Positions 5,232 through 11,022 of a stretch of DNA of 32,452 nucleotides are shown one piece after another. The position numbers and the translations under genes are program-made. A model generated the notes under the pieces. It ran no database searches. It was not told where the DNA came from and saw only the letters and a list, made by a program, of their open reading frames with translations. The DNA is from an uncultured Bacteroidales bacterium (GTDB lineage: Bacteria; Bacteroidota; Bacteroidia; Bacteroidales; Muribaculaceae). Numbering within the stretch: the first letter of the stretch is position 1; every line of letters starts with the position of its first letter. The stretch spans positions 1 through 32,452 of the forward strand of contig CAMWNF010000016.1 of assembly GCA_947175535.1 (NCBI GenBank), read 5' to 3'.

Positions 5232-6671
5232 ATGAAATTCACTCCAGTGATTCTTTTTGCGGCATCATTATGCGCGCTGTCTTTTAATTCGTGCAAAAGC
5301 GAAAAAAAGAATGTAGAGGCAACTCAACCACGTGACGAGGTTATTCTTCACGCATGGACATGGTCATTCGACACCATCGCAGCAAACATGCATCTGATTG
5401 CAGATGCCGGCTATGATTATGTTCAGACATCTCCGGCTCAGGCATGTTACATAGGCGATAACGGTGGTATGGCTCTCTTCAGCCAGGAAGGTGATTCCGT
5501 TATGGGAAAATGGTATTTCTACTATCAGCCTACCGACTGGACTGTCGGGAATTATATGCTCGGCGACCGCGATGCATTCAAAGCCATGTGCGACAGTGCA
5601 CGGGCATACGGTGTAAAAGTGATAGTCGACGTGTTGCCCAACCACACCGCAGTCGACCATACAGCAGTTCTTCCCGGGCTTGACAACGCTGTCGGCGGAC
5701 ATGAAAATCTCTTTCATGCAAACGGCTTCACCGACATAACAGATTACAACGACCGCCTGCAATGCACTACAGGCATGATGGGTGGTCTGCCTGACGTAAA
5801 CACCGAGAATCCTGATTTCCAGTATTATTACATGCAGTATGTCAACGATTTGATTGGTCTTGGTGCACGTGGTTTCCGTTATGACACGGCGAAACATATC
5901 GGACTACCTTCCGACCCGACCGACCCGAAAGCTGAACAGAATGACTTCTGGGACGTCGCTTTAGGTCACAAAGATATCAGGGGTACAATGCTTTCGATGC
6001 CTGACAGTCTATTTATCTACGGTGAGGTTCTACAGGACCGCAATGTAAAGGAAGATGAATATGCCGAGCTCATGAGTGTTACAGCCAGCAACTATGGTCA
6101 TGAACTCCGCAAAGCTCTCACTGAAAACAACGCCGTAGCAGTTAATCTTGAGGACTGGCATCACAGTGCTGACCCGTCGAGACTGGTAACCTGGGTCGAA
6201 AGTCATGACACTTACTGTAATCAGCATGAATCCGCAGACATGTCGGATGAACTCGTACGTGCAGGCTGGGTATTTCTCGCAGCCCGCGATGGCGGTCGTC
6301 CGCTGTTCTTCAGCCGTCCTGCCGGAAGTACACGCGAAAACTATTGGGGTAACAACCGTATCGGTGCACGAGGCAATGACGAGTTCTTCCATCCAGCCGT
6401 CGTCGCAGCCAACAAGTTCCGTCATGACATGACCGGTCAACCTGAAAAAATGATTTTTGCCAAAGACGGAAGCGTAGTTGAGGTTGCACGTGGCGATAAA
6501 GGCGCAGCAATCGTCAGCTTCTCTCCTGAAACTATCTCAATTTCGCTTGACACTCCCTTGCCCGACGGAGAATATACCGATGTTATATATAATAATGTGT
6601 TCACTGTGGCTGATGGAATCCTGACCGGAGAACTCGCACCCCACACTTCATATATAATATATAGTAAATGA
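5232..6671 (+). CDS. GH13 alpha-amylase family glycosidase, probable lipoprotein
   Basis: 479 aa; signal peptide with lipobox-like LSFNSC, VIVDVLPNHT, GARGFRYDTAKHI, GEVLQ, VTWVESHDTYCN (GH13 conserved regions). Confidence 0.88.
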   Translation: MKFTPVILFAASLCALSFNSCKSEKKNVEATQPRDEVILHAWTWSFDTIAANMHLIADAGYDYVQTSPAQACYIGDNGGMALFSQEGDSVMGKWYFYYQPTDWTVGNYMLGDRDAFKAMCDSARAYGVKVIVDVLPNHTAVDHTAVLPGLDNAVGGHENLFHANGFTDITDYNDRLQCTTGMMGGLPDVNTENPDFQYYYMQYVNDLIGLGARGFRYDTAKHIGLPSDPTDPKAEQNDFWDVALGHKDIRGTMLSMPDSLFIYGEVLQDRNVKEDEYAELMSVTASNYGHELRKALTENNAVAVNLEDWHHSADPSRLVTWVESHDTYCNQHESADMSDELVRAGWVFLAARDGGRPLFFSRPAGSTRENYWGNNRIGARGNDEFFHPAVVAANKFRHDMTGQPEKMIFAKDGSVVEVARGDKGAAIVSFSPETISISLDTPLPDGEYTDVIYNNVFTVADGILTGELAPHTSYIIYSK

Positions 6672-6743: not shown

Positions 6744-8294
6744 TTATTTTGTGAGATTCCGCTCGGAAAATAGTATCTGCGAAAAATATTCAACTAACTC
6801 CGGATGATTATCAGCAACATTCATAGTCTCCAAACTGTCAGTCTGCATATCATATAACTGCGGCGACTGAAGATAACCCGTTTCAATTTTAGGTCCCCAT
6901 GCCACAATCGGTTTTCCTTCGGAGGGTTCGATATATTTCCATTCTTTTGTACGTACGCTCAATGCATGATTGGATGCCTGTTCAATCACATAATCGCGAC
7001 CAGCTTTATCCTCGCCTATAATAGAGGCAAGATTATCACGCGAGTCGATTGCTGCATTTTCAGGTATTCTTGCACCAGAAAGTGCCGCAAGCGATTTGAG
7101 CCAGTCAATCTGCGACACAAGTGCATCGCTTGTCTGACCGGCGGGTATTTTTGCGCGCCAACGGACTATCATAGGCACACGTGTGCCGCCTTCAAACGCA
7201 CTGTACTTACCTCCTCTTAGATTACCCGTCGGTGAATGACCTCCAAGCAGTTCTTCCGCATCATCCAGATAACCGTCATCGACGACCGGACCATTATCAC
7301 TCGATAGTATCACCAAAGTATTATCAGCAATACCAAGTAAATCGAGTGTATTAAGTACTGTCTCCACCGTTGCATCAAACTGTGCTATCGCATCGCCTCT
7401 CAGCCCCATCGAACTCTTACCACGGTGGCGTGGATGAGGAAATCTCGGCACGTGGACATCATTTGTGGCAAGATATAGAAAGAATGGCTCAGATACATGC
7501 TGCTCAATAAATTTCACTGCATGTGCGGTGATAGAATCGGCGATATTCTCATCTTTCCACAAGGCTTTTCCACCTCCTTTCATATAACCGATACGACTTA
7601 TGCCGTTGACTATCGACTGATCATGTCCATGACTCGGATGAAGATTATAAAGCAATTCGGGATTATTTTTTCCGGTCGGTTCTCCTTCAAAATTCTCCTT
7701 GTAGCTTACATAAATCGGTGCATCTGCGTCCCAATTGGCTACCTGCCCGTTCTCTATAAATACACATGGTACACGGTCGGCTGTTGCAGCCATTATATAT
7801 GAATAGTCAAAACCAAGGTCTCCGAGAGCCGACGGTAAGGGAGCATTCCAATCCTGCTCTCCGGTCTTGTCGCCGAGTCCCAGATGCCATTTACCTATAC
7901 CAGCTGTTACATATCCTACACTCTTGAACATATCAGCCATTGTAAACTGACCGGGCTTTATTATCATACCGGCATTTCCTGCCGCAACGTCCGTTCCTTT
8001 ATCGCGCCAAGCATATCTGCCGGTCAGTAATCCGTAACGCGAGGGCGTACTTGTTGCTGCAGCCGCATGGGCATTAGTAAACAGAATACCTTCGGCGGCA
8101 AGGCGGTTAACTGCCGGGGTCTTTACGTTTTTTGCGCCAAAACACTCCAAGTCACCGAACCCGAGATCATCTGCATAAATAAATATTACATTAGGCAGAT
8201 TCGGGCGTTCAAAATTCTGCGATTGCGCATTGACTCCTATCGAAGGAATAGTAAGCAAACCGGCGACAAACGTATTCCATTTATCAATAACCAT
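6744..8294 (-). CDS. Sulfatase (S1 family, Ser-type)
   Basis: 516 aa; NVIFIYADDLGFGDLECFGA, AATSTPSRYGLLTGRYAWR (S-x-P-S-R formylglycine motif), GKWHLG, SSDNGP, signal-peptide-like N-terminus. Confidence 0.9.
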   Translation of the reverse strand: MVIDKWNTFVAGLLTIPSIGVNAQSQNFERPNLPNVIFIYADDLGFGDLECFGAKNVKTPAVNRLAAEGILFTNAHAAAATSTPSRYGLLTGRYAWRDKGTDVAAGNAGMIIKPGQFTMADMFKSVGYVTAGIGKWHLGLGDKTGEQDWNAPLPSALGDLGFDYSYIMAATADRVPCVFIENGQVANWDADAPIYVSYKENFEGEPTGKNNPELLYNLHPSHGHDQSIVNGISRIGYMKGGGKALWKDENIADSITAHAVKFIEQHVSEPFFLYLATNDVHVPRFPHPRHRGKSSMGLRGDAIAQFDATVETVLNTLDLLGIADNTLVILSSDNGPVVDDGYLDDAEELLGGHSPTGNLRGGKYSAFEGGTRVPMIVRWRAKIPAGQTSDALVSQIDWLKSLAALSGARIPENAAIDSRDNLASIIGEDKAGRDYVIEQASNHALSVRTKEWKYIEPSEGKPIVAWGPKIETGYLQSPQLYDMQTDSLETMNVADNHPELVEYFSQILFSERNLTK

Positions 8295-8328: not shown

Positions 8329-8582
8329 CATCATTTTCATAAGAATCTGTTTTTCAAACACTATAATATATATATACTATTCTGAAACTATGTTATAAAA
8401 CATAATGCTACAACATACAGTAAAATTAACTTATTTTAGGAATATTACAAAACTATTTCTACCTATATATTTTGATTGATAATTATTACAAAAATCACAC
8501 AATCGTTAAAATAATTATAATTAATCCGTCATAAAATTCATTTTATCAACAAAATCATATAAAAAATCGCCTCTGAAAAAAT

Positions 8583-8612
8583 TTGCAGACTGATATTTTA
8601 TACTTAATTTTG
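8583..8612 (+). promoter_or_regulatory. Bacteroidetes primary-sigma promoter (TTG-N19-TAATTTTG)
   Basis: TTG 8583-8585, 19-nt spacer, TAATTTTG 8605-8612; expected TSS about 8618-8620. Confidence 0.65.
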
Positions 8613-8617
8613 TGCCA

Positions 8618-8745
8618 GGAAAACGAAAGAACTAATAAACGCTTTTTCATATAATAAATAAATCTGGAATAGACATATAAATCTAACATTAAGTACTATG
8701 TGTAAGAAAATAATGGAGGTTCGTGAGAATCTCCATTGTTATTTT
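8618..8745 (+). ncRNA. Candidate small RNA or structured leader upstream of dnaG
   Basis: Starts at the predicted TSS of the preceding promoter. Hairpin AATGGAGGTTC-GTGA-GAATCTCCATT (8712-8737, 11 bp with one G.U) followed by GTTATTTT. No sizeable ORF. Confidence 0.45.
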
Positions 8746-8779
8746 CAGCAATAACCTCCAATCCCTCGTAAATTATTCG

Positions 8780-8787
8780 TAAATTTG
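8780..8787 (+). promoter_or_regulatory. Bacteroidetes -7 element for dnaG (apparent leaderless start)
   Basis: TAAATTTG 8780-8787, six nt before ATG 8794; -33 element not convincing. Confidence 0.55.
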
Positions 8788-8793
8788 CATTAT

Positions 8794-11022
8794 ATGAGAA
8801 TGATTGACCGAGAAACCGTTCAACGAATCCTTGATACCGCAGATATTGTCGATGTGGTCAGTGATTTCGTGAGCCTTAAACGCCGCGGAGCAAATTACAT
8901 CGGACTATGCCCGTTCCATAACGAACGCACGCCGTCATTTTCTGTGTCTAAATCTAAAGGTATCTGTAAATGTTTCAGTTGCGGAAAAGGTGGTTCGCCT
9001 GTAAGTTTCATAATGGAAATCGAGCAGATGAGCTATCAGGAAGCGCTACGTTATCTTGCTAAAAAATATAATATAGAGATAGTCGAACATGAGATGAGCG
9101 AGCAGGAACGTGAGGAAGAATCCCAGCGTGAAGCCATGTTTGCGATAAACTCTTTCGCTCTCCAGCATTTCGAGAAAAATCTCACCGACACTCCCGACGG
9201 GAAAGAGATCGGTCTTGCATATTTCAGAAAACGCGGCATCAACGATGCAATGATACAGCGTTTCCATCTCGGTTACTCTCTCGAACAAGGCAATAACCTT
9301 CACGATGAAGCTCTGGCAAAGGGATATAACGAGAAGTATCTTGTCGACACCGGCTTATGCATACGAAACGACAGAGGAACGGTCTATGACCGCTTCAAAG
9401 GGCGTGTGATTTATCCTGTCCACAGCATTTCCGGTAAAGTGGTCGCCTTCGGTGGACGCACACTCCGAAGCGACAAGAGTGTAGCCAAATATGTAAATTC
9501 ACCCGAATCCATTATCTACAGCAAGAGTCGCGAGCTTTACGGCCTCTATCAGGCAAAACAGTCTATCGCCAAGAAAAACAAATGCATTCTTGTCGAAGGC
9601 TACATGGACGTCATTTCGATGCATCAGGCAGGAGTGGAGAATGTCGTAGCATCCTCGGGCACATCTTTGACTGAAGGTCAAATCAGGCTGATACATCGTT
9701 TTACAGACAACATAACCGTCATCTACGACTCAGATGCCGCAGGTATAAAGGCATCCCTTCGCGGTATTGACATGATATTGGCAGAAGGCATAAATGTCAA
9801 AGTCCTCTCACTACCAGACGGTGACGACCCCGACTCTTTCGCTCAGAGTCACAGCGCTCAGGAAGTTGAGGATTATCTTCAGGCAAATGAGACAGACTTC
9901 ATTCGGTTCAAGACAAAAATTCTGCTGAAAGACGCCGCCAATGATCCGATTGCCAGAAGTAAAGTTATCACAGACATTCTACGGACAATCGCAGTCATAC
10001 CTGATGCCGTCACACGGACAGTATATATCGCTGAGTGTTCTCGTAATTTTGGTATTGACGAGCAAGTGCTTATGCTTCAACTGTCAAAACTGATTGCTGA
10101 GCGTCAAGAAAATGCAGAACGCACATCTCGCCAGGCTGAAGCACGCAATAGCATTGCCGATATAGTCGAAACCGATATACAGGAAGTAAAGCCAGACTCC
10201 AGTTCCACCGAAAGCAGCCCGACAAAATCCGAACCCGCACTTAACATACTTTCAGGTCGTGAGAAATTTCTCGAACCATTCGAACGCGAGCTAATTCGGC
10301 TTATTATCAAGTACGGCATGGTCGACCTTTGCGAAGCAGAAGACGAGAAAGGTAATCCGATATATCTGAAACTCATTGACTACATAGGTTATGAACTCCA
10401 GAAGGAAAACATAACCCTTTCAGTTCCATTATACAGTCAGGCATTCGAGATGGTAAAAAACATGGCTGACACAGCATGGACCGAAGATAAAAACACTTGT
10501 ATTCAAAGACTTCAGAAGAAACGCTCCGATGACGAAACCAGTCTACGCGACGAAATAAGACAGGCAGGAATGTCGGTCAGCGATATAAAGGCGAAGGAAG
10601 TCGCGCTTCAGAGCAGGCTTGATAATGAATTCAATCAAGGGCTCAACGACTTTGCCGAACACTATATAGAACAACGTCTCTGTTCATGTGACAACGATGA
10701 TATAAGACGACTGGCAACCGAACTTGTAAGCGAACGTCATAAACTAAGCAAAATCCACTCGAAATACTCGAAGGTCGAGACCGAGAGGGACAGGCTGATT
10801 GAACTCGTGCCCCGCGCTGTCTACGAACTGCTTTACGGTATTCTTGAATTTGACATCAAGGAAACTGAGCGTAATCTCCAAGCCACTTCTGACACCGCTG
10901 TGATAAGAATGCTCATGCAAAAATATATTGAACTGAAAAGGACGCAGCAGGAATTCGCCAAATTTCTCGGTGAACGCATCGTTGCTCCCCGACCAAGAAA
11001 CAAAGTCAGTCCTGCACAATGA
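8794..11022 (+). CDS. dnaG: DNA primase
   Basis: The ORF track starts at TTG 8785; ATG 8794 (MRMIDRETVQRIL) is preferred. Zinc finger CPFHNERTPSFSVSKSKGICKCFSC, Toprim motifs LVEGYMDVISMHQAG and YDSDAAG. Confidence 0.95.
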   Translation: MRMIDRETVQRILDTADIVDVVSDFVSLKRRGANYIGLCPFHNERTPSFSVSKSKGICKCFSCGKGGSPVSFIMEIEQMSYQEALRYLAKKYNIEIVEHEMSEQEREEESQREAMFAINSFALQHFEKNLTDTPDGKEIGLAYFRKRGINDAMIQRFHLGYSLEQGNNLHDEALAKGYNEKYLVDTGLCIRNDRGTVYDRFKGRVIYPVHSISGKVVAFGGRTLRSDKSVAKYVNSPESIIYSKSRELYGLYQAKQSIAKKNKCILVEGYMDVISMHQAGVENVVASSGTSLTEGQIRLIHRFTDNITVIYDSDAAGIKASLRGIDMILAEGINVKVLSLPDGDDPDSFAQSHSAQEVEDYLQANETDFIRFKTKILLKDAANDPIARSKVITDILRTIAVIPDAVTRTVYIAECSRNFGIDEQVLMLQLSKLIAERQENAERTSRQAEARNSIADIVETDIQEVKPDSSSTESSPTKSEPALNILSGREKFLEPFERELIRLIIKYGMVDLCEAEDEKGNPIYLKLIDYIGYELQKENITLSVPLYSQAFEMVKNMADTAWTEDKNTCIQRLQKKRSDDETSLRDEIRQAGMSVSDIKAKEVALQSRLDNEFNQGLNDFAEHYIEQRLCSCDNDDIRRLATELVSERHKLSKIHSKYSKVETERDRLIELVPRAVYELLYGILEFDIKETERNLQATSDTAVIRMLMQKYIELKRTQQEFAKFLGERIVAPRPRNKVSPAQ

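Follow-up and report, generated by a model that had tools for sequence, protein, structure and literature searches.

Gene organization of the locus

The window, by which we mean the entire stretch of 32,452 nucleotides analysed, carries a sulfatase gene on the reverse strand (6744–8294) and, on the forward strand, the DNA primase gene dnaG (8794–11022; Pfam domains DNAG_N, Zn_ribbon_DnaG and Toprim). Between them, a small RNA (sRNA) gene was located on the forward strand at 8618–8745, with transcription predicted to start near 8618 and to end near 8745. It is preceded by a sigma-ABfr promoter consisting of the −33 element TTTG (8582–8585) and the −7 element TAATTTTG (8605–8612), separated by a spacer of 19 nt. 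The RNA ends in a terminator hairpin of 14 bp with a GUGA loop, followed by UUAUUUU (8709–8745). Its stem arms AATGGAGGTTC (8712–8722) and GAATCTCCATT (8727–8737) enclose the loop GTGA at 8723–8726, and the pairing extends to 14 bp at 8709–8740. This promoter and an 11-bp stem with GTGA loop were proposed in the initial annotation of the region, and both were recovered as features conserved in the genus alignment, the stem with covariation. The region folds more strongly than its shuffles (z = −2.66; 2 of 200). A strict terminator scan of the window listed nothing and the U-tract UUAUUUU is weak; with such a poor U-tract, some read-through into dnaG is possible.

Conservation of the RNA within the genus

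A query of positions 8560–9100 against 49 genomes of the genus gave two types of matches, the dnaG coding sequence, at about 66–77% identity in most genomes, and the segment 8638–8745, at up to 96% identity and on other contigs. With 8615–8750 alone as query, 34 of the 49 genomes were matched, one of them (G013) by a short and weak match. Over the matched part, the sRNA is 99–100% identical in genomes G044 and G038 and 76–96% identical in remoter members of the genus. Aligned copies share TTTG-N~20-TAnnTTTG, GGAAATGATACGACAAGCA and GCTTTTTCATA, then AATCTGGAATAGACATATnAATCTAACATTAAGTAC and the terminator, while their flanks are mostly unrelated. The window and its nearest relatives have diverged in the region 5′ of the predicted seed (see below).

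The letters of the terminator vary between the copies with the pairing kept, and RNAalifold found double changes at 13 of the 14 pairs. In total 70 cells were changed on both sides, against 18 expected with shuffled partners and 11–17 in a control in which partners were slid by 1–3 columns. The covariation of stems in orthologous loci, which had been proposed as a check, is present in the terminator hairpin; the 5′ hairpin of the RNA is weakly supported. The unit is conserved independently of its neighbouring genes, as expected of a trans-encoded sRNA. The conservation of its promoter and terminator together with the RNA, in many unrelated places of the genomes, gives strong support to the free small RNA of about 125 nt that had been put forward as one of two readings of this region.

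The sRNA is usually present in a single copy per genome. Two distinct versions were found only in G029 (L127 and L156); they represent a short group A and a long group B that carries TCATAGTGGAA as an additional segment, coexisting in one genome. In G030, the two apparent copies are probably a single locus divided by the end of a contig.

Relation to dnaG

Most genomes of the genus carry close copies of the sRNA, nearly always apart from dnaG, and the downstream gene varies. In four loci of the genus, the window included, dnaG lies directly downstream, and a weak relative of the sRNA in another genus (G060, L306) is also placed directly upstream of dnaG. The most common upstream neighbour is a gene similar to GH13 alpha-amylases (15 of 55 loci). 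Such a gene is present in the window at 5232–6671, with the sulfatase gene between it and the RNA, and we infer that amylase – RNA – dnaG may represent the ancestral order.

The other reading advanced initially was that of a cis-acting dnaG leader, namely an attenuator or riboswitch whose terminator hairpin would compete with an alternative pairing of TGGAGGTT and AACCTCCA. Both sequences are found in the window, at 8714–8721 and 8753–8760 respectively, and the adjacency of the RNA to dnaG in the four loci and in the weak relative fits this explanation. The alternative pairing is private to the window sequence, however, since AACCTCCA, downstream of the terminator, is absent from L113, L114 and L115, the three other dnaG-adjacent copies; mutually exclusive pairing is therefore not a conserved property of the region upstream of dnaG. 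The majority of the copies are located away from dnaG, and no Rfam riboswitch was matched. Moreover, dnaG has a promoter beside its own ATG. The second promoter-like element before dnaG, also noted initially, was confirmed as the −7-like element TAAATTTG at 8780–8787 on the forward strand, a TAnnTTTG-like sequence that ends 6 nt before the ATG at 8794 and is found before the dnaG ATG in L113–L115 as well. As a TAnnTTTG-like sigma-ABfr element lies within 25 nt of the dnaG start in 32 of 64 relatives, 8780–8787 most plausibly represents a promoter belonging to dnaG itself. A regulated dnaG leader is hence largely refuted and very improbable; of the two initial readings, the free sRNA stood and the attenuator did not, just as the promoter and hairpin were borne out and the competing pairing was not.

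In the dnaG loci L002–L073, as in the window (8780–8794), the position of the −7 element often implies a very short dnaG leader.

Distribution in the Muribaculaceae

Muribaculaceae, bacteria of the mouse-gut type, are dominant in the gut; our literature searches found no paper on their sRNAs. A covariance model built from 30 copies of the genus matched the window at 8609–8754 with 126 bits, and gave matches at E≤0.01 in 132 of 397 genomes of the family, from 17 of 30 genera, the weakest of which may be due to chance. Searching for the conserved core of the RNA with up to three mismatches returned members of the genus only (25 genomes). Forty further family matches were read individually for retention of the motifs: TTAAGTACTATGTGT was kept in 32 of these, TTTTTCAT in 23 and TTTTCAT in 27, and the core occurred together with TTTTCAT in 22. 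In an alignment of the family fitted to the covariance model, all 14 terminator pairs covary.

Order-wide samples, searched with a broader model and the core pattern, contained no clear member outside the Muribaculaceae; the matches were chance-like, the broader model giving one weak match only (G516). The exact core was absent from viral contigs, with only short and weak phage matches, and plasmids contained no match to the sRNA, on which grounds a mobile origin was rejected. The Rfam covariance scan suggested for the region gave neither a family nor a riboswitch at gathering or at relaxed thresholds. The sRNA family is real and of a known kind, and absent from Rfam.

In one other genus (L227, L229 and L251), a gene for an OmpR-type response regulator is conserved 3′ of the sRNA on the opposite strand. 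This regulator might be related to the control of the RNA.

Predicted seed and complementarity to translation starts

The stretch GCUUUUUCAUA (8641–8651, forward strand) is predicted to be the seed, antisense to UAUGAAAAAGC start regions, based on its conservation and its complementarity to start codons. It hardly varies in the genus and is retained in most other genera, while some family members lack it (see the counts of TTTTTCAT and TTTTCAT above). Complementarity was assessed on 612 genes sampled from about 830 kb of the bacterium's own genome, made up of the window and 40 stretches of 20 kb, by scoring exact contiguous complementarity over the start codon for 22-nt windows of the RNA. For windows starting at 8631–8639, 22–27 of the 612 genes had at least 9 contiguous complementary nucleotides covering the start codon, with the maximum of 27 in the area of 8635–8660. 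The overlapping window starting at 8643 matched 12 genes and all remaining windows 0–4, which makes the seed the portion of the RNA with marked start-codon complementarity. Start-region matches of at least 10 nt numbered 10, compared to a mean of 2.85 and up to 8 for shuffles of the seed.

Four marginal extra matches of the RNA examined in genomes of the genus were all antisense over MKK translation starts. These starts are of the type TTATATGAAAAAG or near it, and the genes begin with MKK and have signal-peptide-like N-termini. One such antisense match, in the bacterium's own genome, is perfect over 19 nt. Among the predicted targets, the gene at L175:1723 (19-nt match) and a GldB-like leader at L316:15751 (17-nt match) rank best. 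These AT-rich genomes use AUGAAAAA as a start very often, so that complementarity of the seed does not by itself demonstrate targeting; the case is supported further by FopS, an RNA with a like seed that is proven to pair at start regions.

The near-invariant core and a possible peptide

Located 3′ of the seed is a core of 45 nt, AUCUGGAAUAGACAUAUAAAUCUAACAUUAAGUACUAUGUGUAAG (8662–8706, forward strand), invariant or nearly so in the genus; its portion UUAAGUACUAUGUGU is kept in 32 of the 40 further family members. Within the core, RNAalifold suggests an invariant hairpin of 4 bp, UAGA/UCUA, and an ACAUAU/AUGUGU stem shows few double changes. Among the 612 sampled genes, complementarity of the core to translation starts was not enriched. 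This, together with a conservation that exceeds what any pairing would need, would fit a stand-alone RNA that acts mainly through a protein bound to the core, its seed-like stretch being incidental. We regard this as unlikely, given that UUUUUCAU is kept in most of the divergent members too and corresponds to the seed proven for FopS.

In many members of the genus, the predicted 5′ end is followed by an in-frame ATG and similar peptides can be read, as would be the case for a small mRNA or dual-function RNA whose 5′ part encodes the 12-aa peptide MIRQALxNAFSY. Early stops, frameshifts or the lack of an ATG break the frame in L109, L112–L115, L117, L119, L122, L133, L135, L139 and L156, however, and the downstream ATGTGTAAG frame stops immediately in other genera. 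With its frames broken, the peptide was rejected as highly improbable.

Comparison with known small RNAs

FopS (Rfam RF04319) comprises RbpB-associated paralogous sRNAs of Bacteroides, with a proven seed in Bacteroides thetaiotaomicron; its consensus begins with GUGUUUUUCAUGG. Gel shift, in-line probing, compensatory mutation and in-vitro translation demonstrated that FopS pairs at susC start regions and blocks translation (PMC11697453). It has in common with the sRNA described here a sigma-ABfr promoter, a 5′-proximal stretch with UUUUUCAU, which in FopS is the seed R1′ and in the sRNA the predicted seed, and a terminator with a GUGA-like loop, and the FopS of the genus also shares with it a palindromic candidate operator, present in many FopS promoters. 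FopS RNAs are 65–70 nt long, have the seed at the extreme 5′ end and occur in several to many copies per genome, whereas the sRNA is about 130 nt, usually single-copy, with the extra 45-nt core and its candidate operator about 224 nt upstream. The RF04319 covariance model matched neither the sRNA in the window nor its other copies at the thresholds used, and found true FopS copies in 49 of the 49 genomes of the genus. Tandem arrays of FopS or FopS-like RNAs were seen at G000:C115:14-294 and G007:C25:18700-19708 (two and three copies).

The RbpB domain RRM_1 (PF00076) was not found in the bacterium's own genome or in 48 genomes of the genus, which are drafts and from which a divergent RRM could escape the model; the control search was positive in Bacteroides ihuae. 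Association with RbpB, a feature of FopS, is thus apparently lacking for the sRNA and equally for the true FopS copies of the genus.

GibS (BTnc035) of B. thetaiotaomicron is about 145 nt long and its 5′ seed pairs at translation start regions, at the start codons (PMC7366714). Compared by its published description, it resembles the sRNA in length, in a 5′ seed such as that predicted here, in conserved unpaired regions and a glycan gene alongside (PMC7366714), and differs from it in the promoter motif PM2 and the R1/R2 seeds. PM2 of GibS is a near-palindromic −10/−30 motif; by that description the sRNA is devoid of PM2 and has a sigma-ABfr promoter instead, and the PM2 arrangement apparently differs from the palindrome of the sRNA.

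BTnc231 (RF04180) has an ACGyUUUUUCAUA-like sequence and a terminator loop in common with the sRNA. Its covariance model gave a weak match in a scan of 351 bases (E 0.0086), scoring 23.4 bits where the gathering score is 80.4; no such match was found in six other family members. Kinship with BTnc231/BTnc060 was dismissed as a generic likeness of seed and terminator. In enterobacteria, the stress-controlled, Hfq-dependent OmrA/OmrB, MicA and RybB act as repressors of mRNAs for outer-membrane proteins, close to the start codon; they would be functional analogues of the sRNA and are unrelated in sequence.

An upstream palindrome shared with FopS

A 14-bp palindrome, ATGTTATAAAACAT, lies at 8390–8403 and is a candidate transcription-factor operator common to FopS promoters. 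It is followed at 8425–8438 by ATTAACTTATTTTA, a copy of a conserved upstream element, TTTAACnnAnTTTAA, that forms an aligned block in loci of the genus at a constant distance from palindrome and promoter; between them and the promoter lie approximately 135 bp that lack conservation. In most copies of the genus the palindrome ATGTTnTAnAACAT is positioned at −223 to −226, counted from where the −7 box ends, and in other genera mostly at −53 to −103. It was present in 34 of 52 upstream regions of the sRNA, compared to 0.39 expected from mononucleotide shuffles.

The strict palindrome occurs seven times in the bacterium's own genome, two of these in FopS promoters. Of 20 FopS loci of the genus that were read, 11 have it at −37 relative to the FopS seed; it was seen at exactly this distance in many FopS promoters of the genus (L181–L195). 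Of 78 palindromes in 13 genomes, 16 belong to FopS (at −33 to −35) and 7 to the sRNA (at −219 to −225), 23 in all. Other copies adjoin unrelated genes. At G000:C17:30883 (L298), a palindrome precedes by about 40 nt a TATGTAATTTTG promoter-like element of a putative transcript beside a dnaE-like gene. The presence of the palindrome upstream of both RNAs suggests that the sRNA and FopS probably answer to one common regulator. FopS has been suggested to be enhanced under bile salts by an unknown transcriptional regulator (PMC11697453), for which the palindrome is a candidate site.

Proposed function

At the level of sequence, the comparisons establish a unit that stands alone, in which a sigma-ABfr promoter of its own precedes a conserved RNA with a covarying terminator, kept in varied genomic places; its targets and regulator we infer. 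On balance, 8618–8745 probably encodes a trans-acting sRNA of the FopS/GibS kind, belonging to a Muribaculaceae-wide family. The RNA would expose the seed GCUUUUUCAUA, which would pair with start regions AUGAAAAAG of mRNAs for exported ‘MKK...’ proteins and lipoproteins and block the initiation of translation in the manner of FopS and GibS. The core (8662–8706) may stabilise the RNA, bind a protein or form a second pairing site, and transcription would be controlled through ATGTTnTAnAACAT by a factor that also acts at FopS promoters.

More tentatively, it is conceivable, if rather unlikely, that one factor runs through ATGTTnTAnAACAT a two-armed riboregulon of the FopS copies and the longer RNA, independent of RbpB, which globally lowers the synthesis of exported ‘MKK’ proteins in Muribaculaceae. 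The operator at its fixed position about 224 bp upstream of the longer RNA would then possibly involve DNA looping.

As the genus is apparently devoid of RRM proteins, the question arises how FopS-type RNAs work without RbpB. The candidate operator in common with FopS may provide a handle on the regulator proposed for FopS under bile stress, and the sRNA itself provides a defined family-wide RNA with a testable seed in dominant gut bacteria.
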